Shown here: piece by piece, positions 1-24,074 of the stretch
How positions within the stretch are numbered: position 1 is the first letter of the stretch
How the letters are laid out: each line of letters begins with the position of its first letter
Assembly: GCF_003671765.1 (NCBI RefSeq)
Contig: NZ_QPIB01000007.1
Span: 124,001-188,000, forward strand
DNA length: 64,000 nt
Reading direction: 5' to 3'
DNA from: Xenophilus sp. E41
GTDB taxonomy: Bacteria; Pseudomonadota; Gammaproteobacteria; Burkholderiales; Burkholderiaceae_C
Notes under the pieces: model-generated
Told to the model about the DNA's origin: nothing
The model's input: the letters and a program-made list of their open reading frames with translations, nothing else
Databases searched by the model: none
Position numbers and translations under genes: made by a program

Positions 1-388
1 CGTAGCCGAACATCAGGCCCTGGTCGCCGGCGCCGGTGTTCAGGTGGTCGTCCGATGCGTGGTCCACGCCCTGCGCGATGTCGTTGGACTGCTTGTCGTA
101 GCAGACCATCACCGCGCAGCCCTTGTAGTCGATGCCGTAGTCGGTGTTGTCGTAGCCGATGCGCTTGATGGTGTCGCGTGCGACCTGGATGTAGTCGACG
201 TGTGCGTTGGTCGTGATCTCGCCGGCCAGCACCACCAGGCCGGTGTTGGTCAGCGTCTCGGCGGCCACGCGGCTGCGCGGGTCCTGCTCGAAGATCGCGT
301 CGAGGATCGAGTCCGAGATCTGGTCCGCGACCTTGTCGGGATGGCCCTCGGAAACCGATTCGGAAGTGAAGAGAAAGTCGTTCGCCAT
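1..388 (-). CDS. metK: S-adenosylmethionine synthetase, 5' part
   Basis: Makes S-adenosylmethionine from methionine and ATP in the cytoplasm. Only the first 129 residues lie in the window; the gene runs off the left edge (family length about 390). The start [19 protein letters not shown] is typical of the family, with the GHPDK nucleotide-binding motif, and [12 protein letters not shown] (MetK signature 1) ends the visible part. An AAGGAG ribosome site sits 7 bases before the ATG. It diverges from the acyltransferase pair across about 195 bases. The identification is firm. Confidence 0.97.
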
Positions 389-583
389 GAAAGAAAGCTC
401 CTTGTGCAAGTCCATTGGCGCGTTGCCAGGCTTGGTGGAGTCTTGGCGAACGCTTTAGCGGAGTTGTTTAACGTCGCCCCGCAAGTAGTTCCATAACTCG
501 GCGACAATTTGCATTCTATTCAAGCCGCGCAAGGCTCGCCTTGCCCGCGCGTCTGCCCCTCCCATCCCTGTTGCCGCCCCCGA

Positions 584-1456
584 ATGACCGCGCTGTTCCG
601 TCTGCTCGCCCGTGTGCCGCTGCCGCTGATGCACGCGCTGGGCCGGGCCTTCGGCTGGCTCGTGTGGTGGCTGGCACCCGACTACCGGCGGCGCTTTCGC
701 GATAACGCCGAGGCCGCGGGCTTCACGCCCGAACAGTGGCGCCCGGCCATCGGCGCGGCCGGCGAAATGGTGGCCGAGCTGCCCTGGCTGTGGGCCCGCC
801 CGGCCGGCGAGAGCGTGCTGCCCAAGGTCGTGCGCTGGGAAGGCGCGGAAGTCTTCGAGGCAGCCCTGGCCGAACGCAAGGGCGTCATCATGGTCGTGCC
901 GCACCTGGGCAGCTGGGAGATGTACGGCCAGGCCGTGGGCGAGCGCTTCGTCAAGGACCACGGACCGATCACCGCGCTGTTCCGGCCCTCGCGCAAGAAG
1001 TGGATCGCCGAACTCGTCGAGGGTTCGCGCGACCGGCCCGGTCTGCAGACGCTGCCCACCACCGTCAAGGGCGTGCGCGGCCTCATGCGCACCCTCAAGG
1101 AGGGCGGCTACACGGGCATCCTGCCCGATCAGGTGCCACCGTTGGGGCAGGGCGTGTGGGCACCGTTCCTGGGCCGGCCGGCCTACACCATGACGCTGCT
1201 GCCGCGGCTGGCGCAGACCACCGGCGCCAAGGTCTTCCTCGGCGTGTGCGAGCGGCTGCCGCGCGGGCGCTATGCGATCCGCTTCGTTCCCTTCACCGGC
1301 ACCGCGCTCACCGACCGCGAGGCCACGTCCGAGGCCGCGGCGGCCGCCATGAACGAAGGCATCGAGCAGCTCGTGCGCAGCCTGCCGGGCCAGTACGTGT
1401 GGGACTACGCGCGCTACAAGCAGCCCAAGAACGAGCCGATGGAGGTGGCGCAGTGA
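584..1456 (+). CDS. LpxL/HtrB-type lipid A acyltransferase (first of pair)
   Basis: A 290-residue member of the lysophospholipid/lipid A acyltransferase family, which adds a secondary acyl chain to lipid A at the inner membrane. The catalytic HX4E motif is visible as H107 in HLGSWE. The N-terminus is hydrophobic, as in membrane-bound LpxL proteins. The start at MTALFRLL was preferred over a possible start 25 codons upstream, because the upstream residues are Cys/Pro-rich and unlike the family. It is followed 10 bases later by a second family member, so the two are probably co-transcribed. Which acyl chain or position it uses cannot be told from sequence. Confidence 0.88.
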   Translation: MTALFRLLARVPLPLMHALGRAFGWLVWWLAPDYRRRFRDNAEAAGFTPEQWRPAIGAAGEMVAELPWLWARPAGESVLPKVVRWEGAEVFEAALAERKGVIMVVPHLGSWEMYGQAVGERFVKDHGPITALFRPSRKKWIAELVEGSRDRPGLQTLPTTVKGVRGLMRTLKEGGYTGILPDQVPPLGQGVWAPFLGRPAYTMTLLPRLAQTTGAKVFLGVCERLPRGRYAIRFVPFTGTALTDREATSEAAAAAMNEGIEQLVRSLPGQYVWDYARYKQPKNEPMEVAQ

Positions 1457-1466
1457 AGGAGTCGGC

Positions 1467-2342
1467 ATGAGCCTCTCGGCCCGCCTGGGCATCGGCTTCA
1501 TGAAGGTGCTGGCGCACGTGCCGCTGCCGGTCACGCGCGCCCTGGGCGCCGTGCTGGGCCGCCTGCTGCACGCGGTGGCCAGGCCACGCCGGCACGTGGT
1601 GGACGTGAACCTCGCGCTGTGCTTTCCCCACAAGTCGCCCGAGGAGCGTCGCCACATCGCGCGCCGGACCTTCGTCTACGTGGCGCAGGCCTGGCTGGAC
1701 CGCAGCTGGCTGTGGCATGCACCGCCCGACGTCGTCGACCGCCGCATCCGCATCACCGGGGCCATCGGCGAGATCGACGAGGGCCACGACCCGACAATCC
1801 TGTTCGCGCCGCACTTCTACGGCCTCGATGCGGCGGCGACGGCGCTGACCAAGCACAACCCCAAGCCCTCGACCACCATCTACACCACGCAGCGCGACCC
1901 CATGGTCGACGAGTGGACGCGCCAGGGTCGCACGCGCTTCGGCAACGTCACCGTGCTGCACCGCGTCGACGGCGTGAAGGAGATCGTGGGCGGCCTGCGC
2001 AAGGGCGGCGTGCTGTACCTGCTGCCCGACATGGACTTCGGCCCCTCGCAGTCGGTCTTCGTGCCCTTCTACGGCGTCATGGCGGCCACCGTGCCTTCGC
2101 TGTCGCGCTTCGCGCGGCTGGGACGGGCCAAGGTCGTGCCCGTGATCTCGAAGCTCGTGCCCGGTGGCTACGAGATCGAGGTGCTCCCCGCCTGGACCGG
2201 TTTCCCGACCGACGACGCCATCGCCGACACGGCCCTGATGAACCAGCGCCTGGCCGGCTACATCGACGCCATGCCCGAGCAGTACTACTGGGTGCATCGC
2301 CGCTTCAAGTCGCGCCCGCCGGGCGAACCCAAGGTGTACTGA
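1467..2342 (+). CDS. LpxL/HtrB-type lipid A acyltransferase (second of pair)
   Basis: A 291-residue paralogue of the preceding gene with the alternative catalytic form HX4D (H116 in HFYGLD). A good AAGGAG site lies 7 bases before the ATG. Tandem paralogues of this family usually add different secondary acyl chains to lipid A, so this pair probably completes lipid A acylation; that division of labour is inference. The NRPS gene begins 53 bases after its stop, close enough for read-through. Confidence 0.88.
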   Translation: MSLSARLGIGFMKVLAHVPLPVTRALGAVLGRLLHAVARPRRHVVDVNLALCFPHKSPEERRHIARRTFVYVAQAWLDRSWLWHAPPDVVDRRIRITGAIGEIDEGHDPTILFAPHFYGLDAAATALTKHNPKPSTTIYTTQRDPMVDEWTRQGRTRFGNVTVLHRVDGVKEIVGGLRKGGVLYLLPDMDFGPSQSVFVPFYGVMAATVPSLSRFARLGRAKVVPVISKLVPGGYEIEVLPAWTGFPTDDAIADTALMNQRLAGYIDAMPEQYYWVHRRFKSRPPGEPKVY

Positions 2343-2395
2343 CCCACGCGCTGCAGCCCGGCGGCTTCGGCGCCCGAACGAGTTCTTCCGTTGCC

Positions 2396-5300
2396 ATGCA
2401 TCCCCGCGCCCTGCCGACCGATTCCCTCCTGCACGGCCCCGACCGGCCCGAGCTCCTGCGCCACGAGGTGCTGGCCGACATCTTCGAGGCCACGGCCGCC
2501 CGCGTGCCCGAGAAGACCGCGCTGCGCTTCGACACCGTCGCGCTGAGCTACGGCGAACTCGACCAGGCCGCCGACCGCGTGGCGCACCGCCTTATCGAGG
2601 CCGGGGTGCGGCCCGGCGACATGGTGGGCCTGTGGCTCATGCGCGGCATCGAGCTGCTGGTGCTGCAGCTGGGCATCGCCAAGACCGGCGCCGCCTGGCT
2701 GCCCTTCGACGCCGAGGTGCCGGTCGAGCGCATCGCGGTGTGCCTCGACGACGCCGCGGCACGCGTGCTGCTCGTCGACGCCGGCACCGGCGCGGCGCTG
2801 GCCGAGCCGCCCGCCGGCACGCAGGTGATCCAGGCCGGGCACCTGCTGGCGCCGCTGCCGCCCGGCACCGTGCCGCGCCGGCGCGAGGGCGCGCTGCCCG
2901 AGCACACCGCCTACGTCATCTACACCAGCGGCTCCACCGGCAAGCCCAAGGGCATCGCCATCACGCAGGGCAGCATCTGCCACTTCCTGCGCAGCGAGAA
3001 CGCGCGCCTGGGGGTGGAAGAGGGCGACCGCGTGTACCAGGGCTTCTCGGTCGCCTTCGACATGAGCTTCGAGGAGATCTGGATCAGCTACCTGGTCGGT
3101 GCCTCGCTCTGGATCGCGCCGCGCACGCTGGCCGGCGATCCGGAGGCGCTGCCGCGGGCGCTGATCGAGCAGGACATCACCGTGCTCCACGCGGTGCCCA
3201 CGCTGCTGGCGCTGTTCGCCCAGGACGTGCCGAACCTGCGCATCATCAACCTCGGGGGCGAGATGTGTCCGCAGGCGCTGGTCGACAAGTGGGCCGCGCC
3301 CACGCGCCGCATCTTCAACACCTACGGGCCGACCGAGGCGACGGTGTCGGCCTCGCTGGCCGAGCTGCACGCCGGCGAGCCGGTGACCATCGGCGAGGCG
3401 CTGCCCAACTACGGCCTGCTGGTGATCGAGGTCATCGAGCCCGAGTCCATCGTCGACGGGCGGCTGCCGCCGCTCAGGCTGCTGCCGCTGGGCGAGACCG
3501 GCGAGCTGTGCATCACCGGCCCGGGCGTGGCGGCCGGCTACCTCGGCCGGCCGGAACTCACGGCCGAGAAGTTCGTCGCCAACCCCTGGGCCCGCAACGC
3601 GGGCGAGGCGCGCCTGTACCGCACCGGCGACCTGGCCCGCGTCGAGCTGCGCGCCGACGGCACGCCGCAGATGCAGTGCCTCGGCCGGGCCGACGACCAG
3701 GTCAAGGTGCGGGGCTTCCGCGTCGAGCTGGGCGAGATCGAGGCGGTGCTGGCGCAGCAGCCGGGCGTGGGCACCACGGCCGTGGTGCTGCGGCCCGAAG
3801 CTGGCATCGACCAGCTGATCGCCTTCTATGTGCCGGCCGGCGAAGCAGCGGCCGCGTCCGCGCTGCGCTCGGCCCTGGCCGGGCGGCTGCCGCCGTACAT
3901 GGTGCCGGCGCGCTTCGAGCCCCTGGACGCGATGCCCCGGCTGCCCAGCGGCAAGATCGACCGCAAGGTGCTGCGGGCGCTGCCGCTGGCGGCGGCCGGC
4001 GATGCCGAGGGCGGCGACGTGCCGCAGACGCCGGCCGAGGAGCTCCTGTTCGCGACGCTGGGCCGACTGTTCCCCGGTCAGCCGATCCGGCGCACGCTGG
4101 ACTTCTTCGCCGACCTGGGCGGGCATTCGCTGCTGGCGGCGCGGCTGGTCTCGCAGCTGCGGCAGGACGCGCGTTTCGCGCAGGCCACCGTCGGCGACGT
4201 GTATGCCGGCCGGCAGGTGGGCGCGATCGCGGAGGCACTGCAACGCGGCATGGCCGATGCCGGCAGCGCAGCACCCGAGCGCCCCTTCGTCCTGCATTCC
4301 GCCTGGCGCCGCTGGCGCTGCGGGCTGGCGCAGGCGGCGCTGATTCCCTTCCTGGTGCTGCTCAAGATGGCGCAGTGGCTGGCGCCCTTCTTCGCCTACC
4401 ACTTCAACACCGGCGAGGAGGGCGACAGCGTGGCCTTCGCCGTCGCGGCCTCGGTGGCGGCGTTCGTCCTCACCACGCTGGCCGAGTTCGCGGTGGCCTG
4501 GGCCGGCAAGTGGCTGGTGGCCGGCCGCCTGGCGCCGGGCAGCTATCCGCTGTGGGGCTGGGTGTACTTCCGCTGGTGGCTGGCCGACCGGCTGGTCGAG
4601 GCCGTGCCGACCTACATGATCAACGGATCGCCGCTCTACGCCTGGTGGCTGCGGGCACTGGGCGCGCGCGTCGGCGACGAGGTGAACCTCGGCTCGGTCA
4701 CGGTGCGGGTGCCGGAGCTGGTGCGCATCGGCGAGGGCAGCAGCATCGGCAACGCCGTGATGCTGGAGAACGCGCGCGTCGAGGGCGGCCTGCTGCACCT
4801 GGGCCGCATCGACATCGGCGCCCAGGTCGGCATCGGCTCCTACGTGGTCATCGAGGGCGGCACCCGCATCGGCGACTGGGGGCACCTGGAAGGTCAGTCG
4901 GCCCTGTCGGCCGGCCAGTCGGTGCCACCGCGCAAGGTCTGGCACGGCTCGCCCGCCCGCGAGCGTGCCGACTTCGACCCGGCCAGCCTGGCGCCGCGCC
5001 CGGCCGTGAGCCGCCGGCGGCTGCGCTGGGAGATGGCCTTCTTCATCACCGGCGCCCTGGCGGTGGCGGTGCTGTTCTTCATGCCGGTGTTCCCGACCTT
5101 CCTGCTCATCGACCAGCTGGACGTCGAGGCGATCTCCGTGCGGCCGCTGGTCGACGCCGGCACCATCACGGACTGGCAGGCCTTCGGCTTGCGGCTGGTG
5201 AAGTTTTTCCTGCTCGCGCTGCCGGCCAGCCTGGTGTTCATCGCCTTCACCGCGCTGGCGGCCGCTGCCCTGCGCGTGCTGTTCCTGCCGCGCATGCAGG

Positions 5301-6472
5301 CCGGCACTTGGCCGGTGCACGGCAACCGCTACCTGGGCAAGTGGCTGGTCAACCAGATCCAGGAGTCGAGCCTGGCGGTGCTGCACGGCGTGTACGCCAC
5401 CGTGTTCTCGGCCAGCTGGTACCGCCTGCTCGGCGCCAAGGTCGGCAAGGAAACCGAGCTGTCGACCGCGCTGGGGGTGGTGCCCGACATGCTCACGCTG
5501 GGCGACGAGTGCTTCATCGCCGACGCCGTGATGCTGGGCGACGAGCACATCGACGGCGGCTGGATGACGGTGCAGCCCACCGTGGTGTCGCGCCGCAGCT
5601 TCGTCGGCAACGGCGCCTACGTGCCCGACGGCACGGTGATCCCCGAGAACGTGCTGATCGGCGTGATGAGCGCGGTGCCGCGCGCCACCGCCATGCAGCC
5701 GGGCGACACCTGGCTGGGCGCGCCGCCGGTGCATTTGCCGGCGCGCGAGGTGGTCGGCGGCTTCGCGCCGCACCTGACCTTCGCGCCCTCACGCTGGCGC
5801 AAGCTGGGCCGCGGCACGGTGGAGGCCTTCCGCATCGCCTCGCCGCATGCACTGGTCATCGCCGTCGGTTATGCGATCGTGCTGGACGCCATGCCGCTGG
5901 CCGAGTCGGGGCGCTGGGGCGACGTGGCGATCGACCTGGCGGTGGGCGGCGCGGCCTTCGCGCTGGCCACCTTCCTCTTCGTGGCGGCCTTCAAGTGGCT
6001 GACGGTGCGGCGCTACGACCGCCGCGCGACGCCGATGTGGACGCCCTTCGTCTGGCTGTCGGAGGCGGTGACCAACATGTACGAGGGCATCACGGTGCCC
6101 TGGTTCCTGCGCTACCTGCGTGGCACGCCGTGGCTCAACAATGCCTTCAACCTGCTGGGGGCGGACATCGCACGCGGCGTGTACCTGGACACCACCGACA
6201 TCACCGAGTTCGACTGCGTGCACATCGGCGAACACAGCGAGCTGAACGCGGCCTGCTGCCCGCAGACCCACCTGTTCGAGGACCGCGTGATGAAGATCGA
6301 CCACGTGCACATCGGCAGCCGGGTGACGGTGGGGCCGCGCACCACGATGCTCTACGGCACCCAGGTGCAGGACGGCGCGCAGCTCGGGCCCATGACGCTG
6401 GTGATGAAGGGCGAGAACATTCCCGCCGGCACGCGCTGGCACGGCCTGCCGGCCGTGCCCTGGCGCGATTAG
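2396..6472 (+). CDS. Pls/PosA-family nonribosomal peptide synthetase
   Basis: A 1358-residue synthetase with the layout of epsilon-poly-L-lysine synthetase (Pls), a family that makes isopeptide-linked homopolymers of cationic amino acids. Adenylation domain: A3 YTSGSTGKPKG (176-186), A4 FDMSFEEIW (from 221), A5 NTYGPTEA (from 308), A8 GRADDQVKVRGF (from 430), A10 PSGKIDRK (517-524). Carrier domain: LGGHSLL, with S578 as phosphopantetheine site. Paired hydrophobic helices near 645-708, 880-965 and 1145-1204 alternate with three beta-helix, acetyltransferase-like blocks near 777-835, 1017-1100 and 1255-1358. No canonical condensation HHxxxDG or thioesterase domain is seen. The start was set at MHPRALP, because the open frame upstream reads antiparallel to nothing and overlaps lpxL. 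The product is unknown; a cationic amino acid oligomer is inferred from the family. Confidence 0.88.
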   Translation: MHPRALPTDSLLHGPDRPELLRHEVLADIFEATAARVPEKTALRFDTVALSYGELDQAADRVAHRLIEAGVRPGDMVGLWLMRGIELLVLQLGIAKTGAAWLPFDAEVPVERIAVCLDDAAARVLLVDAGTGAALAEPPAGTQVIQAGHLLAPLPPGTVPRRREGALPEHTAYVIYTSGSTGKPKGIAITQGSICHFLRSENARLGVEEGDRVYQGFSVAFDMSFEEIWISYLVGASLWIAPRTLAGDPEALPRALIEQDITVLHAVPTLLALFAQDVPNLRIINLGGEMCPQALVDKWAAPTRRIFNTYGPTEATVSASLAELHAGEPVTIGEALPNYGLLVIEVIEPESIVDGRLPPLRLLPLGETGELCITGPGVAAGYLGRPELTAEKFVANPWARNAGEARLYRTGDLARVELRADGTPQMQCLGRADDQVKVRGFRVELGEIEAVLAQQPGVGTTAVVLRPEAGIDQLIAFYVPAGEAAAASALRSALAGRLPPYMVPARFEPLDAMPRLPSGKIDRKVLRALPLAAAGDAEGGDVPQTPAEELLFATLGRLFPGQPIRRTLDFFADLGGHSLLAARLVSQLRQDARFAQATVGDVYAGRQVGAIAEALQRGMADAGSAAPERPFVLHSAWRRWRCGLAQAALIPFLVLLKMAQWLAPFFAYHFNTGEEGDSVAFAVAASVAAFVLTTLAEFAVAWAGKWLVAGRLAPGSYPLWGWVYFRWWLADRLVEAVPTYMINGSPLYAWWLRALGARVGDEVNLGSVTVRVPELVRIGEGSSIGNAVMLENARVEGGLLHLGRIDIGAQVGIGSYVVIEGGTRIGDWGHLEGQSALSAGQSVPPRKVWHGSPARERADFDPASLAPRPAVSRRRLRWEMAFFITGALAVAVLFFMPVFPTFLLIDQLDVEAISVRPLVDAGTITDWQAFGLRLVKFFLLALPASLVFIAFTALAAAALRVLFLPRMQAGTWPVHGNRYLGKWLVNQIQESSLAVLHGVYATVFSASWYRLLGAKVGKETELSTALGVVPDMLTLGDECFIADAVMLGDEHIDGGWMTVQPTVVSRRSFVGNGAYVPDGTVIPENVLIGVMSAVPRATAMQPGDTWLGAPPVHLPAREVVGGFAPHLTFAPSRWRKLGRGTVEAFRIASPHALVIAVGYAIVLDAMPLAESGRWGDVAIDLAVGGAAFALATFLFVAAFKWLTVRRYDRRATPMWTPFVWLSEAVTNMYEGITVPWFLRYLRGTPWLNNAFNLLGADIARGVYLDTTDITEFDCVHIGEHSELNAACCPQTHLFEDRVMKIDHVHIGSRVTVGPRTTMLYGTQVQDGAQLGPMTLVMKGENIPAGTRWHGLPAVPWRD

Positions 6473-7401
6473 GCGGTGGGCGAAGGCGTGCGCGCGATGA
6501 AGGCGGCGATGTCGCGCGCCACGCCCTCGGGCTGCTCGTGGATGATCCAGTGCGTTGCGCCCGGCACGCGCTTGATTTCGAGCTGCGGCACGTAGGCGTC
6601 CAGGCCGTCGAGCAGGCCGGGCAGCAGCGCCGCATCGTCCATGGCCCACAGCACCAGCGTGGGCACCGTCACCGCCAGGCGCTCGTGGGGCAGGGTGGGG
6701 ATGTCGTCGGCGCTGGTCTTGCCCGGGACGGGCGGCTTCATCGGCGTCACGCGGTACAGGTTGCAGGCACCGGTCAGGCCCTGGCTCCAGACATCGCGGT
6801 ACTTCTGCTTGACCGGCTCGGTGAGCCAGCCGAAGCCGTCGGGCCCGGCCTTCATCATGGTGAACATGGCGAAGAGGCGGGCGAAGTCGTTCTCGGCCAG
6901 CACCTTCTCCGAACCCGGCGCCGCGAGCCAGTTCATGTACGCGCTGGCCTTCTGCTGCTCGGCGCTGGTCTTCAGTTCGCGGGTGAAGGTGCCGGGGTGC
7001 GGGGAATTGATGATCACCAGCCGGCGCACCTGGCGCGGGAAGGCGTTGGCATGGCCCCAGCCGAAGGCGCCGCCCCAGTCATGGGCGACCAGCGTGTCGA
7101 TGATGCCGTCCTCGCGCTCGGTCTTCACCAGCTCGACCATGTCCTGGATCAGCAGCTGCGGGCGATAGGCCTCGACCTCCTGGGGCTGGCTCGACTTCTC
7201 GAAGCCGCGCAGGTTGGGCGCGACGCAGCGGTAGCCGCCGTGGGCCGGCTGGGAGAACCACTCGAGCAGCTCGTCCCAGATGAAGGCGGCTTCGGGGAAG
7301 CCGTGCAGGAACACCATGAGCGGCCGGCCCTTGTCGCCGGCGGCGCGGCAGCTGAGGGTGATGCCGTTGGGCAGGGTGCGCTCGAAGGTCTCGATCGTCA
7401 T
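6469..7401 (-). CDS. alpha/beta hydrolase, epoxide-hydrolase-like
   Basis: A 310-residue alpha/beta-fold hydrolase. It shows the HGFPE oxyanion motif near residue 33, an aspartate nucleophile D108 in AHDWGG (as in epoxide hydrolases and dehalogenases rather than serine esterases), and a catalytic His in GATHW near residue 285. The nucleophile and HGxP favour epoxide hydrolase, but the substrate is unknown. The start MTIETFERTL was preferred over a frame extension of 26 codons, which runs through a dispersed repeat. Its TAA overlaps the TAG of the convergent synthetase gene by two bases. Confidence 0.8.
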   Translation of the reverse strand: MTIETFERTLPNGITLSCRAAGDKGRPLMVFLHGFPEAAFIWDELLEWFSQPAHGGYRCVAPNLRGFEKSSQPQEVEAYRPQLLIQDMVELVKTEREDGIIDTLVAHDWGGAFGWGHANAFPRQVRRLVIINSPHPGTFTRELKTSAEQQKASAYMNWLAAPGSEKVLAENDFARLFAMFTMMKAGPDGFGWLTEPVKQKYRDVWSQGLTGACNLYRVTPMKPPVPGKTSADDIPTLPHERLAVTVPTLVLWAMDDAALLPGLLDGLDAYVPQLEIKRVPGATHWIIHEQPEGVARDIAAFIARTPSPTA

Positions 7402-7420
7402 GGGCCTTGTCTCCTGATCT

Positions 7421-7476
7421 GCTCTCGTTTTGATAGCTGCTTGCGCAGGCGGGGCGGGCGCTGGAGCCCGATTCGG
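7421..7476 (+). repeat. dispersed GATAGCTGCT repeat, copy 1
   Basis: A 50-60 base element fills the gap between the hydrolase start and the engB stop. It carries the core GATAGCTGCTTGCGCAGG and the distal block GGCGGGCGCTGGAGCC followed by GATTCGG. The same parts recur near 14.4, 25.8, 39.4, 45.2, 48.7, 51.7 and 55.9 kb. Confidence 0.8.
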
Positions 7477-7479
7477 CAC

Positions 7480-9109: not shown

Positions 9110-11290
9110 ATGTCCGTTTCCACCCACGGCCTTCGACTGAAGACCGGCTCGCAGGCCCTGCGCGCCGGGGTGGAGCTGCTGTCCTCGATGCGTTTCGCCA
9201 TCGCGCTGCTCACGGTCATCTGCATCGCCTCGATCATCGGCACGGTGCTCAAGCAGCATGAGCCGATCGGCAACTACATCAACCAGTTCGGCCCCTTCTG
9301 GGCGCAGGTGTTCCGGGCCGCACGGCTCGATTCGATCTACAGCGCCTGGTGGTTCCTGCTGATCCTGGCCTTCCTGGTCGTCAGCACCTCGCTGTGCATC
9401 GCGCGCAACACGCCGCGCATCCTGGCCGACCTGAAGACCTACAAGGAAGACATCCGCACCCAGAGCCTGAAGGCCTTCGGCCTGCGCGCCGAGGCGGCCC
9501 TGCCCGAAGCGCCCGAGCAGGCCGCCAACCGCATCGGCCAGCTGCTGGTGGGCGGCGGCTGGAAGGTGAAGCTGCAGCGCCGCGACGGCGATGGCAGCGC
9601 CGGCGGCTGGATGGTCGCGGCGCGCGCGGGCGGCGCCAACAAGCTGGGCTACATCGCGGCGCATGGCGCCATCGTGCTGGTGTGCCTGGGCGGGCTGCTC
9701 GACGGCGACCTGATCGTGCGGGCGCAGACCTGGTTCAACGGCAAGAGCGTCTACACCGGCGGGGGCCTGATCTCGGAGGTGCCGGCGCAGTACCGCCTGT
9801 CGCCCAACAATCCCACCTTCCGCGGCAACATCCTGGTGCCCGAGGGCAGCCAGTCCAGCGTCGCGATCCTGAACCAGGCCGACGGCGTGCTGCTGCAGGA
9901 GCTGCCCTTCGCGATCGAGCTGAAGAAGTTCATCGTCGACTACTACTCGACCGGCATGCCCAAGCTCTTCGCCAGCGAGGTGGTGCTGCACGACCGCGCC
10001 ACCGGCGAGCGCAAGGAGGCGCGCATCGAGGTCAACCACCCGGCGAGCTGGAAGGGCATCGAGATCTACCAGTCCAGCTTCGACGACGGCGGCTCGAGCG
10101 TGAAGCTCAAGGCGGTGCCGATGGCCGCGGCGGCCAAGCCCTTCGAGATCGAAGGCACCATCGGCGGCAGTTCCGAACTCACCAACGGCAACGAGCGCCT
10201 GAAGCTCGAGTACACCGCGCTGCGCGTCATCAACGTCGAGAACTTCGCCGACCCGAGCAGCGGCAGCGGGGCCGACGTGCGCAAGGTCGACCTGCAGCAC
10301 AGTCTCGAATCACGCCTGGGTGCGGCCAACAAGGTGAACAAGCCCAAGGTGCTGCGCAACATCGGCCCGAGCATCGGCTACAAGCTGCGCGACGCCTCGG
10401 GCCAGGCGCGCGAGTACCAGAACTACATGGTGCCGGCCGTGATGAACGAGGACGGCCCGCCGGTCTTCCTGCTGGGCATGCGCGACCAGCCCGACCAGCC
10501 CTTCCGCTACCTGCGCGTGCCGGCCGACGAGCAGGGCTCGATGGACGGCTACCTGCACCTGCGCACCGCGCTGGCCGATGTGGCCATGCGGCAGAAGGCG
10601 GTGGACCGCTACGTGGCGCATGCCATCGATCCGGGCAAGACCGAGCAGGTCGAGCAGCTGCGCAATTCGGCCGCGCGCGCGCTGGGGCTTTTCGCGGGGG
10701 CGGAGCGCGTGCGACCGACGCCTGCCGGCAAGGCCGACGACGCCTCGGCCGGCGGCTGGCAGGCGATCGCCGAGTTCATCGACCTGCAGGTGCCCGAGGC
10801 CGAGCGCCAGCGCGCCGGCCAGGTGCTGGTGCGCATCGTCAACGACGTGCTGTTCGAACTGCTCAACCTCAGCCGCGAGCAAGCCGGCCAGGCGGCGCTG
10901 CCGATGGACGACAAGACCCAGGGCTGGCTCACGCAGGCCGTGCTGGCGATCAGCGATGCGCACTTCTACCCCGCGCCGGTGGCGCTGATGCTGACCGACT
11001 TCAAGCAGGTGCAGGCCAGCGTCTTCCAGGTCGCGCGCGCACCGGGCAAGAAGGTGGTCTACCTGGGCTGCCTGTTGCTCATCGTGGGCATCTTTGCCAT
11101 GCTCTACGTGCGCGAACGGCGGCTCTGGGTCTGGATCGCCCCGGGCGGCGGCGCGGAGGCCGGCAGCCACGCGACGATGGCGCTGTCGACCAACCGCCGC
11201 AACCTCGACAGCGACAAGGAATTCGCCCACCTGCGCAGCCGGCTGCTGATGCTGCCCGCGCCCGCCGGCCCTGGAGACACACCCCGATGA
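9110..11290 (+). CDS. resB: cytochrome c biogenesis protein ResB
   Basis: A 726-residue ResB/Ccs1 protein. With CcsA/ResC it forms the system II synthetase that carries haem across the membrane and ligates it to apocytochrome CXXCH motifs. Three hydrophobic segments near the N-terminus (residues about 23-45, 75-98 and 180-200), a large periplasmic domain and a final helix near 645-665 fit the family. Its TGA overlaps the ATG of the next gene (ATGA), so translation is coupled to its partner. Confidence 0.93.
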   Translation: MSVSTHGLRLKTGSQALRAGVELLSSMRFAIALLTVICIASIIGTVLKQHEPIGNYINQFGPFWAQVFRAARLDSIYSAWWFLLILAFLVVSTSLCIARNTPRILADLKTYKEDIRTQSLKAFGLRAEAALPEAPEQAANRIGQLLVGGGWKVKLQRRDGDGSAGGWMVAARAGGANKLGYIAAHGAIVLVCLGGLLDGDLIVRAQTWFNGKSVYTGGGLISEVPAQYRLSPNNPTFRGNILVPEGSQSSVAILNQADGVLLQELPFAIELKKFIVDYYSTGMPKLFASEVVLHDRATGERKEARIEVNHPASWKGIEIYQSSFDDGGSSVKLKAVPMAAAAKPFEIEGTIGGSSELTNGNERLKLEYTALRVINVENFADPSSGSGADVRKVDLQHSLESRLGAANKVNKPKVLRNIGPSIGYKLRDASGQAREYQNYMVPAVMNEDGPPVFLLGMRDQPDQPFRYLRVPADEQGSMDGYLHLRTALADVAMRQKAVDRYVAHAIDPGKTEQVEQLRNSAARALGLFAGAERVRPTPAGKADDASAGGWQAIAEFIDLQVPEAERQRAGQVLVRIVNDVLFELLNLSREQAGQAALPMDDKTQGWLTQAVLAISDAHFYPAPVALMLTDFKQVQASVFQVARAPGKKVVYLGCLLLIVGIFAMLYVRERRLWVWIAPGGGAEAGSHATMALSTNRRNLDSDKEFAHLRSRLLMLPAPAGPGDTPR

Positions 11291-12606
11291 ACACCACCAC
11301 CCTCACCCTGAACGAGAGCTGGTTCTCGCGCCGCACGCTGTTCGACTGGGTCTTCGCGGCCATCGTGGTCGCCGGCGGACTGTTCGCGTTCACCCGCTAC
11401 CAGCCGTCGATGGACGGCTACGAGAAGGCGATCCTGCTGGGCACCATCCCGGCGCTGATCTGGCTGTGCTGGTTCTGGCGGCCGCTGCGGGTGCTGGCGC
11501 TGGTGGTGGGCGCGGCCTCGCTGCTGGCGATCGCGTCGTACCAGGGCGATCTCGCCCGCGCGGACACGGTGTTCTGGCTCAAGTACTTCCTCTCGAGCCA
11601 GTCGGCCATCCTCTGGATGAGCGTGCTCTTCTTCATGAGCACGGTCTTCTACTGGCTCGGCTTCTTCAGCGCCAGCCAGGCGGATGCGATGGAGCGCATC
11701 GGCTCGCGCATCGCCTGGGCCGCGGTCACGATGGCGCTCATCGGCACCATGGTGCGCTGGTACGAGAGCCACCAGATCGGCCCCGACATCGGCCACATCC
11801 CGGTGAGCAACCTCTACGAGGTCTTCGTGCTGTTCTGCTGGCTCACGGCGGCCTTCTACCTGTACTTCGAGGAGCGCTATGCGACGCGCTCGCTGGGCGC
11901 CTTCGTCATGCTGGTGGTCAGCGCGGCGGTGGGCTTCCTGCTCTGGTACACGATCGTGCGCGAGGCGCACGAGATCCAGCCGCTGGTACCGGCCCTGCAG
12001 AGCTGGTGGATGAAGCTGCACGTGCCGGCCAACTTCATCGGCTACGGCACCTTCTCGCTGGCGGCGATGGTCGCCTTCGCCTACCTGATCAAGCAGCAGG
12101 CGGCCGAGACCCGGTGGTGGCGCCTCACCCCGATCTGGCTGCTGGGCGTGGCGATGTGCTTCGTGCCCATCGCCTTCCGCCAGCGCGGCGTGGCCGAGGC
12201 GGGCGGCAGCTACTGGGTCGGCTATGCGCTGGTGTCGGCGCTCATCGCCGCCGGCATCCTGCTGGCGCGCAAGCGCATCGCGGCGCGGCTGCCGAGCTTC
12301 GAGGTGCTGGACGACGTGATGTACAAGTCCATCGCCGTCGGCTTCGCCTTCTTCACCATCGCGACGGTGCTGGGCGCGCTCTGGGCCGCCGACGCCTGGG
12401 GCGGCTACTGGAGCTGGGACCCGAAGGAGACCTGGGCCCTGATCGTCTGGCTGAACTACGCGGCCTGGCTGCACATGCGGCTGGTCAAGGGCCTGCGCGG
12501 CACGATCGCGTCGTGGTGGGCGCTGGTCGGCCTGGCCGTGACCACCTTCGCCTTCCTCGGCGTGAACATGTTCCTGAGCGGACTGCACAGCTACGGCACG
12601 CTGTAG
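11287..12606 (+). CDS. ccsB: cytochrome c biogenesis protein CcsA/ResC family
   Basis: A 439-residue polytopic membrane protein carrying the haem-handling WWD-type motif WGGYWSWDPKETW near the C-terminus, characteristic of CcsA/ResC. The start MNTTTLTLNESWF gives a 4-base overlap with resB; an upstream extension of the frame lies entirely inside resB and is rejected. It is named ccsB in many betaproteobacterial annotations and ccsA or resC elsewhere. The thiol-reducing partners CcdA/DsbD and CcsX are not in this window. Confidence 0.92.
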   Translation: MNTTTLTLNESWFSRRTLFDWVFAAIVVAGGLFAFTRYQPSMDGYEKAILLGTIPALIWLCWFWRPLRVLALVVGAASLLAIASYQGDLARADTVFWLKYFLSSQSAILWMSVLFFMSTVFYWLGFFSASQADAMERIGSRIAWAAVTMALIGTMVRWYESHQIGPDIGHIPVSNLYEVFVLFCWLTAAFYLYFEERYATRSLGAFVMLVVSAAVGFLLWYTIVREAHEIQPLVPALQSWWMKLHVPANFIGYGTFSLAAMVAFAYLIKQQAAETRWWRLTPIWLLGVAMCFVPIAFRQRGVAEAGGSYWVGYALVSALIAAGILLARKRIAARLPSFEVLDDVMYKSIAVGFAFFTIATVLGALWAADAWGGYWSWDPKETWALIVWLNYAAWLHMRLVKGLRGTIASWWALVGLAVTTFAFLGVNMFLSGLHSYGTL

Positions 12607-12765
12607 GCGGCGTCCGGCCAGCGGCGCCGCGCGAATTGAGGCAGACTGAAACCGGACCGGCCTGCGGCGCGTAACCTGATGGAGGGATGCGCCGAATTAA
12701 CCGGTGGTCCCCCTGTCCCATCGAGTGCCGGTCCATCGTGCCGGCGCACCGCGAAAGGTCCCCGC

Positions 12766-13761
12766 ATGCTGATCCGTTCCCACGATTCCGGTTTCAATCA
12801 CCCGCACCCCAGCGAGATCACGCCACGTGCCGTCTACGAAGGGCGTCGCGACATGCTGCGCCTGCTGGCCGGTGGCGCCGCCGGCGCGGCCCTGGCCGGC
12901 TGGGCCGGCCGCGAGGCACTGGCCCAGGCCGCGCCCGGCAAGCTGCCCGCCTTGAAGGGGGCGAAGTCCACGGTGCCCGGCGCCCAGACCATGGAGAAGG
13001 TGACCGATTACAAGGACGCCACCACCTACAACAACTACTACGAGTTCGGCACCGACAAGTCCGACCCGGCCAAGAACGCCGGGACGCTCAAGACCCGGCC
13101 GTGGACGGTCGAGGTCGAGGGCCTGGTGAAGAAGCCCGGCAAGTACGGCATCGAGGACCTGCTCAAGCTCAGCGCGCAGGAAGACCGCACGTATCGGCTG
13201 CGCTGCGTCGAAGGCTGGTCGATGGTGATCCCGTGGGTGGGGTACTCGCTGGCCGAGTTGATCAAGAAGGTCGAGCCGCAGGGCAACGCCAAGTACGTCG
13301 AGTTCCTCACGCTGGCCGACCCGAAGACCATGCCCTTCGTCGGCTCGCGCGTGCTCGACTGGCCGTATGCCGAAGGCCTGCGCATGGACGAGGCGATGCA
13401 CCCGCTCACGCTGCTGACCTTCGGCATGTACGGCGAGGTGCTGCCCAACCAGAACGGCGCGCCGGTGCGCATCGTGGTGCCGTGGAAGTACGGCTTCAAG
13501 TCGGCCAAGTCGATCGTGAAGATCCGCTTCGTCGAGAAGGAGCCGGGCACGGCCTGGAACAAGGCGGCGGCCAACGAGTACGGCTTCTACTCGAACGTGA
13601 ACCCCGACGTCGACCACCCGCGCTGGAGCCAGGCGACCGAACGGCGCATCGGCGACGGCGGCGGCCTCTTCGCCAAGCGGCACAAGACGCTGCTCTTCAA
13701 CGGCTACGAGCAGCAGGTCGGCCAGCTCTATGCGGGCATGGACCTGAAGAAGTTCTATTGA
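12766..13761 (+). CDS. msrP: protein-methionine-sulfoxide reductase, molybdenum subunit
   Basis: A 331-residue MsrP (YedY) protein that repairs oxidised methionines in periplasmic proteins, using a molybdopterin cofactor. A twin-arginine signal is visible near the N-terminus ([11 protein letters not shown], then a hydrophobic stretch ending ALAQA), so it should be exported folded by the TatABC system encoded near 58 kb. The Mo-ligating Cys is expected in LRCVEGWSM. Its heme partner msrQ starts 20 bases downstream. The start MLIRSHDSG was preferred to one 29 codons upstream, since this places the RR motif at a usual distance. Confidence 0.94.
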
Positions 13762-13780
13762 CGCTGGCAGCGGGTTCGCG

Positions 13781-14425
13781 ATGAACAAGCTGTTGCTGCA
13801 TCCGGCGGCCAAGCCGCTGGTCTTCCTGCTGTGCCTGCTGCCCTTCGGGTCGCTGGCTTATGGCGCCTTCACCGACGGCCTGGGTGCCAACCCGGCAGAG
13901 TTCCTGATCCGCGCGACCGGTGACTGGACGCTGCGCTTCATCTGCATCACGCTGGCCGTGACGCCGCTGCGCGTGATGGCGAAGCTGACCGGCCTGGCGC
14001 GCTTTCGCCGCATGCTTGGGCTGTTCGCGTACTTCTACGTCGTGCTGCACCTGCTGAGCTACGCCTGGTTCGACATGGGCTTCGAGGTCGCAGACATCGC
14101 CAAGGACATCGCCAAGCGGCCCTTCATCCTGGTCGGTTTCGCGGCGTTCGTGCTGCTCACGCCGCTGGCGGCGACCTCGTTCAACCGCGCGATCAAGGCG
14201 CTGGGCGCGAAGCGCTGGCAGGCGCTGCACAAGCTGGTGTACCTGATCGCCGGCCTGGGCCTGCTGCACTTCTTCTGGCTGCGCGCCGGCAAGAACAACT
14301 TTGCCGAAGTGAGCGTCTACGCCGCCGTCATTGCCGTGCTGCTGGGCTGGCGTGTGTGGAATTTCGCAAGCAAAAAGTGGCTGCAGCGCCCGCCAGCCGG
14401 GCGTCAGCAGCTATCGAAACCATAG
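13781..14425 (+). CDS. msrQ: MsrPQ heme-binding membrane subunit
   Basis: A 214-residue MsrQ (YedZ) with about six hydrophobic helices. It passes electrons from the quinone pool through b-type haem to MsrP. Histidines in hydrophobic segments (for example VVLHLLSY and ALHKLVYL) are the likely haem ligands. The last dozen or so residues (after KKWLQRPP) and the stop lie within a copy of the dispersed repeat in reverse orientation, so this tail looks acquired. It ends 3 bases from the lysA stop on the other strand. Confidence 0.92.
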   Translation: MNKLLLHPAAKPLVFLLCLLPFGSLAYGAFTDGLGANPAEFLIRATGDWTLRFICITLAVTPLRVMAKLTGLARFRRMLGLFAYFYVVLHLLSYAWFDMGFEVADIAKDIAKRPFILVGFAAFVLLTPLAATSFNRAIKALGAKRWQALHKLVYLIAGLGLLHFFWLRAGKNNFAEVSVYAAVIAVLLGWRVWNFASKKWLQRPPAGRQQLSKP

Positions 14426-14429
14426 CAAT
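14378..14429 (-). repeat. dispersed GATAGCTGCT repeat, copy in msrQ 3' end
   Basis: Read on the minus strand it gives TTGCTATGG, then TCGATAGCTGCT and GGCGGGCGCTGCAGCC, the same parts in the same order as the other copies. It encodes the end of MsrQ, including its TAG stop. Confidence 0.7.
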
Positions 14430-15709
14430 CAGAGGGCCTGCTCGGTGCGCAGCTGGTCCTCGACGGTCTCGCGGCGGCGGATCAGCGTGGCGCTGGCGCC
14501 GCTGACCAGCACCTCGGCGGCGCGGGCGCGGGTGTTGTAGTTGCTCGCCATGCTCATGCAGTACGCGCCGGCCGACAGCACCGCCAGCAGGTCGCCGGCC
14601 TCGACCGCCAGGTCGCGGTCGCGCCCCAGCCAGTCGCCGCTCTCGCACACCGGGCCGACCACGTCGTAGCGGGTGGCCGGCAGCGACGGCCGCTCGGCGA
14701 CCGGCACGATGCGGTGGAACGCCTGGTACATCGCCGGCCGCGGCAGGTCGTTCATGGCCGCGTCGACGATGCAGAAGTTCTTCTCTTCGCCCGGCTTGGT
14801 GTAGAGCACCTCGGTCACGCACAGGCCGGCATTGCCGACCAGCGAGCGGCCGGGCTCGATCAGGATCCGGCGGTCGCCGAAGCCGCGCGCGTCGAGCCGC
14901 GCGAAGAGCTGCTTCCAAAGGGCGTCGGCTGCAGGTGGCGTGTCGCCGTCGTAGTCGATGCCCAGCCCGCCGCCGAAGTCGATGTGGTGCAGCGGCACGC
15001 CGGCCGCTTCGATGGCCTGCACCAGGTCGAGGATGCGGTCCAGCGCGTCGAGGTAGGGCGAGGACTCGGTGATCTGCGAGCCGATGTGGCAGTCGATGCC
15101 CACCACCTGCAGCCCCGGCAGCGCCGCCGCGTGGCGGTACACGGCGACGGCGCGGTCGTGGGCCACGCCGAACTTGTTGCCCTTGAGGCCGGTGGAGATG
15201 TAGGGGTGCGTCTTGGGATCGACGTTGGGGTTGATGCGCACGCTCACGGGCGCCCGCCGGTTCTGCTCGAGCGCCACTTCGTTGAGCACGTCGAGTTCGG
15301 CCTCGCTCTCGACGTTGAAGCAGCCGATACCGGCCGCCAGCGCTTGCCGCATCTCGGCGCGCGTCTTGCCCACGCCCGAGAAGATGACCTTGGCCGGCTC
15401 GGCCCCGGCCGCGAGCACGCGTGCCAGTTCGCCGCCCGACACGATGTCGAAGCCGCAACCCGCCTCGGCGAACACGCGCAGCACGCCGAGCGAGGAGTTG
15501 GCCTTCATGGCGTAGCAGATCAGCGCATCGCGGCCCGCGAAGCCGCGCTGGTAGGCCGCCAGCGCATCCAGCATCCACTGCTTCGAATAGACGAAGAGCG
15601 GCGTGCCGTGCTCGCGCACGAGCGCATCGAGTGCGACGCCCTCGACCTGCAGCGTGGTGCCGCGGCGGGCGATGTGCGGGTGCCCGGGGAGCGTCGGCGC
15701 GCCGCTCAT
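14429..15709 (-). CDS. lysA: diaminopimelate decarboxylase
   Basis: A 426-residue fold-type III PLP enzyme for the last step of lysine synthesis (meso-diaminopimelate to lysine and CO2). Visible motifs: the PLP lysine in CYAMKANSS, the glycine loop FGGGLGIDYDGD, EPGRSLVGNAG, and the catalytic Cys in VCESGDWLGRDR. The start MSGAPTLPG overlaps the stop of lptM by ATGA, so the two are translationally coupled. Family-normal length. Confidence 0.96.
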   Translation of the reverse strand: MSGAPTLPGHPHIARRGTTLQVEGVALDALVREHGTPLFVYSKQWMLDALAAYQRGFAGRDALICYAMKANSSLGVLRVFAEAGCGFDIVSGGELARVLAAGAEPAKVIFSGVGKTRAEMRQALAAGIGCFNVESEAELDVLNEVALEQNRRAPVSVRINPNVDPKTHPYISTGLKGNKFGVAHDRAVAVYRHAAALPGLQVVGIDCHIGSQITESSPYLDALDRILDLVQAIEAAGVPLHHIDFGGGLGIDYDGDTPPAADALWKQLFARLDARGFGDRRILIEPGRSLVGNAGLCVTEVLYTKPGEEKNFCIVDAAMNDLPRPAMYQAFHRIVPVAERPSLPATRYDVVGPVCESGDWLGRDRDLAVEAGDLLAVLSAGAYCMSMASNYNTRARAAEVLVSGASATLIRRRETVEDQLRTEQAL

Positions 15710-21373: not shown

Positions 21374-21909
21374 AGGCCCGGTACTTTCCGCTGTGGGTCC
21401 TCGCGACCGTGACCCTGGCCGGCTGCTTCGGCTCGGAGCAGGACGACCTGCGCACCTGGATGCGCGAGCAGCGTGCCCAGGTCAAGCCGCGGGTCACGCC
21501 CATTACCGAACCCACCAAGTTCACGCCGCAGCCGTACACCGAAGGGGCCGCCGTGGAGCCCTTCAGCAGCGTCAAGCTGACCCAGGCCCTGCGCCGCGAT
21601 TCGAGCCAGCCGGGCAATTCCGACCTCATCGCGCCCGAGCTGTCGCGGCGCAAGGAAGCGCTCGAGGCCTTCCCCCTCGACTCGATGGCCATGGTCGGCA
21701 GCCTCAACCGGAACGGACAACGCGTCGCGCTGGTCAGTGTGGACAAGCTGCTGTACCAGGTGCGCGTCGGCAACCACCTGGGCCTGAACTACGGGCGCGT
21801 CACCCGCATCGACGAAACGGAACTCGGCTTGCGTGAAATCGTGCAGGACGCTGCCGGCGAATGGATCGAGCGTACGGCCACGCTGCAACTGCAAGAGAGG
21901 TCGAAATGA
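21370..21909 (+). CDS. pilP: type IV pilus lipoprotein PilP
   Basis: A 179-residue lipoprotein with the lipobox LAGCFG after a short signal. It has a long unstructured segment and then a beta-sandwich domain (DSMAMVGSL to the end) that contacts the PilQ secretin. It connects PilNO to the outer-membrane ring. It overlaps both neighbours by ATGA, so pilO, pilP and pilQ are translationally chained. Confidence 0.93.
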   Translation: MKARYFPLWVLATVTLAGCFGSEQDDLRTWMREQRAQVKPRVTPITEPTKFTPQPYTEGAAVEPFSSVKLTQALRRDSSQPGNSDLIAPELSRRKEALEAFPLDSMAMVGSLNRNGQRVALVSVDKLLYQVRVGNHLGLNYGRVTRIDETELGLREIVQDAAGEWIERTATLQLQERSK

Positions 21910-24074
21910 ATCCCCTAGCGAAGAAGAATATGCGCACTCTCAACTGGTTGCGTGCGGCCGGCCTCTGTGTTGTGGCCCTGGGTGCCGCAGCTGTGGCCCA
22001 CGCGCAGAACGCCATCGAGGCGGTCACCAGCTCCATGCAATCGGGCGCCGAAGTGGTGCGGATCGATCTCGCGCAGCCGCTGGCGGCCGTGCCCGACGGA
22101 TTCGTGGTCCAGAACCCCGCCCGCATCGCACTCGATTTCCCCGGCGTGACGAATGCCATCGGACGCTCCGCCCTGGACATGAACCAGGGGAACCTGCGCT
22201 CAGTCAATGTGGTCCAGGCCGGTGAGCGCACGCGCCTCGTGCTCAACCTCAAGCAGGCGGCCGCCTACCGCGCCGAGATCCAGGGCAAGTCCCTGCTCGT
22301 CGTGCTGGATCCCGTGCCGGGCGCCGCACTGGTCGCCTCGGCGCAGTCGAGCTTCGCCGAGACGCGCAACCGCGACAGCCTGCCGCTCAAGGACATCGAT
22401 TTCCGCCTGGGCCCCGACAACACGGGCCGCGTGATCGTCGACCTGCCGAACAACCAGGTCGGCGTCGACGTGCGCCCGCAGGGCCGCAACCTCGTGGTGG
22501 AGTTCACCAAGTCGACCCTGTCCGAAGGCCTGCGCCGTCGCCTGGACGTGGCGGACTTCAACACGCCGGTGCAGTTCATCAACACGCAGCAGGTGGGCGA
22601 CCGCGTGCGCATGACCATCGAGCCGCGTGGCGAGTGGGAGCACAGCGCCTACCAGAGCGACAACCAGTTCGTCGTCGAAGTCCGTCCGCGCAAGGTCGAT
22701 CCGACCAAGCTGACGCAGGGCGTGGGCTACAACGGCGAGAAGCTGTCGCTGAACTTCCAGAACATCGAGATCCGCTCCCTGCTGCAGGTCATCGCGGACT
22801 TCACGAACTTCAACATCGTGACCTCTGACTCGGTCACCGGCTCGCTGACCTTGCGCCTGAAGGACGTGCCCTGGGACCAGGCCCTGGACATCATCATGCA
22901 GGCCAAGAACCTCGGCATGCGCAAGAACGGCACTGTGCTGTGGATTGCGCCCAAGGACGAGATCAACGCCAAGGAGAAGATGGAGTTCGAGGCCCGCGCG
23001 GCCATCGAGAACCTCGAGCCTCTGCGGACCCAGTCCTTCCAGCTGAACTACACCAAGGCGATCGCCATTGCGCAGGGCCTCACGGGCACGGGGCAAGGCG
23101 CCGGTGGCGGTGGCGGCTCCGGCACGACCACCCGCATCCTGAGCCCGCGCGGCAGCGTCATCGCCGAATCGCGCACCAACCAGCTTTTCGTCTCGGACAT
23201 CCCGTCCAAGCTCGCCCAGGTGGCCGAGCTGATCCAGAAGCTCGACGTCCCCGTGCGCCAGGTCATGATCGAGGCGCGCATCGTCGAGGCGTCCGACACC
23301 TTCGGCAAGTCGCTCGGCGCTCGCCTGGGCGGCGGCGCGATCAACCGGCGCAACTCCTTCGGCACCTGGCCGTCGGTCACCGGCGGCGGGACCACCTCGA
23401 CCACGACCAACGGCGTGACCACGTCGACCACGACGAGCCCGACGGTGAATTTCGCCTCGCCGACGCTGAGCAACCTGATCAACCTGCCGGCGGGTGACGC
23501 CGGCGGTACCGGCAACGCGGCCGGCGCCTTCACCCTGGCGCTGTTCAATTCGAGCTTCTCGCGCATGCTGAACCTCGAGATCTCCGCGCTCGAGGCCGAT
23601 GGCAAGGGCAAGCTGATCTCCAGCCCGCGCGTCATCACGGCCGACCAGACCAAGGCGCTGATCGAGCAGGGCGAGGAAATCCCCTACCAGCAGGCCACCT
23701 CCAGCGGCGCGACCTCGATCTCCTTCCGCAAGGCGGTGCTGAAGCTCGAAGTCACGCCGCAGATCACGCCCGAGGGCAACATCATCCTGACGCTCGACGT
23801 GAGCAAGGATGCCCGCGGCGTGAACACGACGGCCGGCCCGGCCATCAACACCAAGCACGTGCAGACCGAGGTGCTGGTCGAGAACGGCGGCACGGTGGTG
23901 ATCGGTGGTATCTTCGAACTCACCGAAACCAACGACGAATCGCGGATTCCGGTGCTGGGTGAGGCGCCCATCATTGGCGCACTGTTCCGCAATCGCGAGC
24001 GCGTTGCCAACAAGACCGAAATGCTCGTCTTTATCACGCCGAAGATGATCACCGACCGCAACGCGGCGCGCTGA
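21906..24074 (+). CDS. pilQ: type IV pilus secretin PilQ
   Basis: A 722-residue outer-membrane secretin through which pili emerge. The signal peptide ends VAHAQN. Two N-terminal AMIN-like beta-domains (about 25-280) follow, which bind peptidoglycan. Then come an STN-type domain ([16 protein letters not shown]), an N1/KH domain, and the secretin barrel with VIGGIFEL and [14 protein letters not shown] Thr/Ser/Gly-rich low-complexity insert (residues about 497-525) lies in the barrel region. The start overlaps the pilP stop. Confidence 0.95.

Follow-up and report, generated by a model that had tools for sequence, protein, structure and literature searches.

Within a 64,000-nt stretch of the Xenophilus sp. 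E41 genome (contig NZ_QPIB01000007.1, positions 124,001 to 188,000; referred to below as the window), we found that the gene at positions 2396..6472 of the + strand encodes a 1358-aa member of the Pls/PosA family of non-ribosomal peptide synthetases (NRPS). We put the probability at roughly 0.8 that this posA/pls-like gene encodes a single-gene, membrane-bound delta-poly-L-ornithine synthetase orthologous to Acinetobacter PosA, with activity and product predicted by comparison with homologs. The NCBIfam profile TIGR02353 ('Pls/PosA family non-ribosomal peptide synthetase') matched residues 645-1353 at 765.1 bits against a cut-off of 423.1, covering profile positions 2-695 of 695, and the NCBIfam adenylation model TIGR01733 scored 381.9 bits against a cut-off of 317.4. 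The frame is open for 1358 codons without interruption. Relative to the Xenophilus aerolatus ortholog, we counted 250 nucleotide differences, distributed as 35, 16 and 199 over codon positions 1, 2 and 3, and 48 residue differences in 1358; the third-position excess combined with the small number of residue changes indicated that the frame is coding and under purifying selection. The start codon was set by homolog alignment, and inspection by eye revealed no clear ribosome-binding site upstream of it. The host genome contains one full-length copy of the synthetase.

Likeness to PosA extended over the whole protein. A tblastn search of plasmid-collection records identified Acinetobacter baumannii proteins 51.2% identical over 100% of the length, one of which (L025) agreed with the solved adenylation domain of PosA at every position over 412 residues. 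Among solved structures, the Xenophilus adenylation domain matched that of PosA best (8g95/8g96, 496.6 bits), followed by linear gramicidin synthetase (493.3 bits, summed over two stretches), and the A domain of Pls (7wew) scored 254.6 bits. The residues of its amino-acid pocket, D222 M223 E226 H265 N285 G287 T309 V317 S318 K520 (the first three, D222, M223 and E226, at 3059..3073, + strand, from the aligned code), spell DMEHNGTVSK and equal the published PosA code at 10/10 positions (PMC10522769). According to that paper, PosA prefers L-ornithine and produces delta-poly-L-ornithine in vitro as a free polymer of 7-12-mers, whereas position 2 of the pocket is Ala in lysine-activating members and Phe in a diaminopropionate enzyme. 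In the Xenophilus protein this position is Met223, not the lysine-type Ala.

We then compared the pocket across 83 related loci, which together with the query yielded 82 aligned proteins once L061 and L074 (<1250 aa) were dropped. DMEHNGTVSK was found in 77 of these, DMEHNGSVSK in 3, DLEDIGSVVK in Azospirillum and DMEHNGTVTK in Sphingomonas. When 48 more diverse rows were compared, the PosA code accounted for 21/48 and nine other codes for 27/48, among them DLED- codes in Azospirillum, Rhizobium and others and DFE- codes in Streptomyces, Streptantibioticus and others. An IQ-TREE tree of 34 rows placed PosA and 28 rows, including the query, in one clade (100/100). The rows from Azospirillum, Rhizobium, Sphingomonas, Streptomyces and Streptantibioticus fell outside this clade; in this tree PosA and some outgroup rows were flagged for long branches and atypical composition. 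Based on the identical pocket, the full-length identity to PosA and membership of the PosA clade, delta-poly-L-ornithine is the predicted product. The original prediction had proposed an uncharacterised cationic amino acid polymer or a capped product, and the word uncharacterised lost its support because the pocket is identical to that of PosA, a known producer of delta-poly-L-ornithine (PMC10522769).

Several points weigh against this assignment. Pocket sharing among the 77 proteins is partly a consequence of relatedness, and a near-code reaches beyond the PosA clade, because two distant loci, L028 of Sphingomonas and L121 (36-37% identical), carry DMEHNGTVTK, which differs at the ninth residue only. 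Beside the synthetase, no phosphopantetheinyl transferase gene is present in this window or in L031-L033, the Xenophilus-lineage loci with downstream sequence, and both activity and product in Xenophilus are predictions. Moreover, PosA also takes D-Orn, with a kcat/KM about half of that for L-Orn, and weakly activates L-Lys (PMC10522769), so the code leaves both possible. The latter substrate would lead to a different product, epsilon-poly-L-lysine or another diamino-acid polymer, whose synthetases belong to the same family, and PosA with the M218A substitution has a nearly tenfold higher kcat/KM for Lys (PMC10522769), which places the pocket close to a Lys pocket. We nevertheless consider a lysine-type product unlikely, since the Xenophilus protein has Met at position 2 as in PosA, where lysine-activating members have Ala (PMC10522769), and shares all ten pocket positions with PosA.

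The domain layout agreed with what had been read from the letters alone, namely an adenylation domain and a carrier serine followed by helix pairs and beta-helix blocks with neither condensation nor thioesterase domain; profiles, hydropathy and an AlphaFold2 model bore this out, and the family assignment made at the same time was upheld by TIGR02353 far over its cut-off, the identity to PosA, the model and the tree. The adenylation domain (residues 30-520; 2483..3955, +) was matched by PF00501 (Pfam AMP-binding, residues 30-383, E 1.2e-68) and PF13193 (AMP-binding_C, residues 447-520). It is followed by a carrier (thiolation) domain (residues 560-614; 4073..4237, +), for which PF00550 (Pfam PP-binding) scored 20.0 bits, 0.8 below its cut-off of 20.8, and in which the phosphopantetheine serine S578 (4127-4129, +) lies in the motif LGGHS (residues 574-578); this serine aligned in 48/48 rows, 41 of which had the GGHS form. 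Pfam additionally matched Hexapep, and neither Condensation nor Thioesterase was among the five Pfam families matched at E up to 1e-3. The HHxxxDG motif is not in the protein sequence, and judged by the condensation domain the protein is not a canonical multimodular NRPS. Hydropathy identified three pairs of hydrophobic segments, six in all, at residues 647-667 and 677-703 (4334..4504, +), 876-908 and 929-967 (5021..5296, +), and 1145-1163 and 1176-1204 (5828..6007, +), and none before residue 600.

These pairs form the membrane helices of the C-terminal polymerising region (residues 645-1353; 4328..6454, +), delimited by TIGR02353 and supported by the AlphaFold2 model. The two checks that had been suggested for this half of the protein, a profile search and a structure prediction, both favoured the family: residues 640-1358 matched TIGR02353 and no unrelated family, and the model (residues 601-1358, 43 sequences, mean pLDDT 89.9, pTM 0.90) contained three beta-helix-like blocks. 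In the model, a helix pair followed by short, evenly spaced strands occurs three times, with the first pair corresponding to model helices H36-70 and H79-109 and the second and third pairs likewise present. The left-handed beta-helix blocks were assigned to about residues 756-860 (C1; 4661..4975, +), 1008-1114 (C2; 5417..5737, +) and 1251-1354 (C3; 6146..6457, +), the last from the model strands. C2 was additionally indicated by conservation, including the invariant D1043 and N1072, and by a weak sequence match to the hexapeptide proteins 3r3r (E 2.6e-4) and 3tio (E 1.1e-3), and residues 1306-1354 of C3 weakly matched a gamma-carbonic anhydrase (E 4.6e-3). Searching residues 601-1358 against solved structures with phmmer returned 35 sequences at E up to 1, all told weak matches of hexapeptide type (best 2.6e-4). 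The best 50 Foldseek matches listed comprised hexapeptide acyltransferases, gamma-carbonic-anhydrase-type chains (some under complex I entries) and two designed trimers, with TM-scores by query length of 0.08-0.16 among the matches listed, and VIA-align matches lay chiefly over the first beta-helix; among the phmmer and the listed Foldseek and VIA-align matches, none was a solved structure of the whole polymerising domain. The three-beta-helix model is not new here, having been published for PosA by Patel and Gulick, who used AlphaFold and RoseTTAFold to describe its three beta-helices as one domain with approximate three-fold symmetry, the structure being unknown then (PMC10522769), and C1-C3 of Pls have already been called acetyltransferase-related (PMC8117764).

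To locate residues that may form the isopeptide bond, conservation was mapped over 49 sequences including the query, with relatives 24-82% identical, truncated protein L135 and L008 excluded, and no weighting for relatedness. Seventeen polar positions were at least 97% conserved, and 10 of them (E1223, T1244, E1271, Q1290, H1292, E1295, K1300, Y1320, K1338 and E1340) fell in repeat 3, which makes up 153 of 758 residues (P 0.003 versus polar make-up, with no correction for how the segment or its borders were chosen). The others were R1010, D1043 and N1072 in repeat 2, R726 alone in repeat 1, and Y603, Q646 and R1139. Identical in 49/49 sequences were Q1290-x-H1292-xx-E1295-xxxx-K1300 of C3 (6263..6295, +), which we regard as a candidate catalytic segment, Y1320 (6353-6355, +), and K1338 and E1340 (6407-6415, +). 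One turn of a left-handed beta-helix is 18 residues, and Y1320 and K1338, spaced by 18 residues, may therefore stack. This distribution tentatively suggests a single active site located mainly in repeat 3, with these residues as putative catalytic groups. With similar reserve, the three repeats may be viewed as an internal pseudo-trimer in which two now serve as scaffolds and one isopeptide-forming site is left in repeat 3, centred on the Q-x-H-xx-E-xxxx-K segment together with the Tyr, Lys and Glu that lie one or two turns of the helix further along; if true, a hexapeptide-acyltransferase fold would have given rise to a polymerase of amino acids that has one functional site.

Earlier work on Pls limits both the single-site proposal and its novelty. 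PMC4668381 states, with reference to Kito et al. 2013, that Pls needs every one of its three tandem domains, although a shared fold could explain this need. C-domain residues conserved for polymerisation were marked earlier, after Kito et al. 2013 (PMC7179176, Fig. 2 legend), and Kito et al. may already name and test part of our residue list; a handful of universally conserved residues in C1-C3 have also been pointed out (PMC4668381). The accessible parts of PMC10522769 name no catalytic residue in the PosA beta-helix domain, and titles and abstract openings in the openly accessible literature pointed neither to a single active site nor to a transferase partner. As a separate candidate for a clue to function, we considered a stand-alone C3-like protein (L013, a 66-bit partial match), which was rejected: by eye it is a hexapeptide protein without Q-x-H-xx-E.

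Many related synthetases are accompanied by a phosphopantetheinyl-transferase-like gene. Using a profile made from 41 flanking genes of the related loci, we found such a gene in 57/83 loci, immediately downstream in 48 and at 1.2-1.7 kb in 4, and the remaining 5 were frames starting further inside the synthetase gene, which stayed unclassified; 3/83 loci have at most one downstream base, and the profile failed to detect at least one annotated example (L028). Three of these genes, one of them a 1.3-kb case, were compared with Pfam and all reached the PF01648 cut-off. The synthetase and the same-strand transferase-like gene of these loci (L034-L109, L110) sometimes overlap and probably constitute a two-gene cassette. 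In an Ottowia-like genome an extra gene lies between synthetase and transferase (L034:10148-11392), and an HQSNGQS stretch suggests that its product may resemble outer-membrane phospholipase A.

PF01648 matched two genes of the Xenophilus sp. E41 genome: one, AcpS-like, sits on the contig of the synthetase at a distance of 270 kb, and the other, Sfp-like, lies on another contig (G000:C45), where it adjoins a separate NRPS gene with condensation, adenylation and carrier domains (L153, G000:C45:30000-48000). By eye only, a hydrolase-like frame also follows that NRPS gene. A second PF01648 match was present in 5/5 synthetase carriers versus 1/9 non-carriers in the genus (hypergeometric 0.003); we do not count this association as strong evidence, since the five carriers are closely related and a single event may account for them all. 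PosA was treated with Sfp in vitro (PMC10522769), and a transferase encoded elsewhere in the genome could serve the Xenophilus carrier in trans.

The synthetase occurs in 5/14 genomes of the genus, that of E41 included, with one copy split across two contigs. In all five carriers it lies directly behind the second of two lipid-A acyltransferase genes, whereas in the other nine genomes lpxLb is followed at once by a convergent alpha/beta hydrolase gene and engB, giving an empty site. In the window, this insertion site is bordered on the left by lpxLb (1467..2342, +, PF03279; in 14/14 genus genomes) and on the right by the alpha/beta hydrolase gene (6469..7479, -, PF00561), and lpxLa (509..1456, +, PF03279) is a neighbour that we do not think part of the system. 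Identity of the synthetase to its relatives was 77-80% in Ottowia, 77% in Brachymonas, 70-72% in Comamonas and 65-66% in Variovorax, and core genes ranked in the opposite order, with lpxLb and LysA 71% and 84% identical to those of Variovorax (the genome of L057) versus 57-60% and 73-75% to those of three Ottowia genomes. In the IQ-TREE tree the synthetase was nested with Ottowia and Brachymonas, with Variovorax outside, and this grouping with Ottowia rather than Variovorax makes lateral acquisition by the Xenophilus lineage likely.

A laterally acquired gene might be a relic in a lineage that no longer makes the polymer, which would fit its presence in only 5/14 genus genomes and the missing adjoining transferase gene that many relatives possess. 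We judge this very improbable: the frame is open and shows third-position bias, and the pocket, the carrier serine and every invariant residue are intact, which argues for a working enzyme, as does the second transferase match in every carrier. Least probable of all is a function tied to lipid A acylation through the upstream lpxL genes. The synthetase is on their strand, 53 bases past lpxLb, and positions 1-7000 gave no sigma-70-type promoter match, though 0.3 were expected by chance, hence this is uninformative; however, lpxL adjoins the synthetase in only 4/83 other loci (L031-L033 and L074, all of the Xenophilus lineage; 3 of the 83 offer <1 kb upstream sequence), and the lpxL pair is complete without the synthetase in 9/14 genus genomes. 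We accordingly rejected the idea that the synthetase and lipid A are functionally connected by way of these lpxL genes.

Neighbouring genes also bear on whether the product is capped, as an ornithine chain joined to a lipid or polyketide after the manner of the Ottowia thiooxydans cluster. The O. thiooxydans relative (L040), 77% identical and with the same pocket, adjoins glycosyltransferase and NMO-ketosynthase genes (L040:10190-16055) that match a hybrid lipid cluster described in PMC13291983, and the E41 genome has an NRPS gene elsewhere (L153). Yet the tested window neighbours are core-type with no polyketide synthase or lipid-synthase gene identified among them, and A. baumannii PosA yields free polymer in vitro (PMC10522769), so we hold capping to be improbable. 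For the capped alternative of the original prediction, the O. thiooxydans relative with its lipid/polyketide cluster was thus the nearest hint, and the tested neighbours offered nothing in its favour. Farther along the window (9110-15703 and 21861-24071) are genes for ResB, a molybdopterin oxidoreductase with a ferric-reductase-like partner, presumably MsrP/MsrQ-like, a LysA-type decarboxylase and a secretin with AMIN domains. In a genome of the same taxonomic family, locus L008 (G028:C1:448349-462292) has two synthetase matches of equal score, separated by about 12 kb; the first frame (1357 aa) is long enough for a full gene and the second has 872 aa.

For the delta-poly-L-ornithine synthetase that we favour, the following mechanism is proposed. 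The adenylation domain would activate L-ornithine with ATP and load it onto the phosphopantetheine of the carrier, itself modified by a phosphopantetheinyl transferase whose gene would lie elsewhere in the genome. The C-terminal membrane domain, comprising three helix pairs and three beta-helices and forming an internal pseudo-trimer according to the published PosA model, would repeatedly join the ornithine carboxyl to the next side-chain amine, producing a short cationic isopeptide. Bond formation may take place at the candidate site in repeat 3, where H1292 would act as the base together with E1295, K1300, Y1320, K1338 and E1340, possibly helped by repeat 2. The biological role is perhaps competition with fungi or other microbes; a synthetic 12-mer of the PosA product was antifungal, and knockout biofilm was slightly higher (PMC10522769). 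A PosA-coded group across many bacteria has already been reported (PMC10522769), and a term search found Comamonas, Burkholder-, Betaproteobacteria and Xenophilus named nowhere in the main text of that paper; in our alignment, which is mostly Burkholderiales, 77/82 proteins have the PosA pocket. Among 14 control genomes, Corynebacterium glutamicum was the sole one with a family member over the cut-off. One genus supplies a clean insertion/empty-site pair for asking about the function of the polymer, and the conservation map supplies a short residue list for asking how an enzyme free of condensation domains forms the bond.

The left-handed beta-helix fold of single blocks is common to the Xenophilus synthetase, hexapeptide acyltransferases (serine acetyltransferase, maltose/galactoside O-acetyltransferase) and gamma-carbonic anhydrases. 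Whereas the latter two groups form soluble trimers with acetyl-CoA or CO2 as substrate, the Xenophilus synthetase joins three such blocks within one membrane protein. Its nearest clade in the tree consists of Pls/PosA-like genes of Ottowia, Brachymonas and Comamonas, which have the same pocket in the rows compared; many of these carry a transferase-like gene behind the synthetase and one lies in a lipid-polyketide cluster, unlike the Xenophilus gene. PosA of Acinetobacter baumannii (PMC10522769; PDB 8G95-8G98) has the same domain order, a similar length and the same carrier motif, and the two proteins agree in the 10/10 pocket code, in six helices and three beta-helices (for PosA, from the published model) and at 51% full-length identity; they differ in host and neighbourhood and at about half of their residues, and the activity of the Xenophilus enzyme is a prediction. 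With Pls it has the family architecture in common, as described in PMC10522769, PMC4668381 and PMC8117764, and is distinguished from it by Met at pocket position 2, where Lys-activating members have Ala (PMC10522769).

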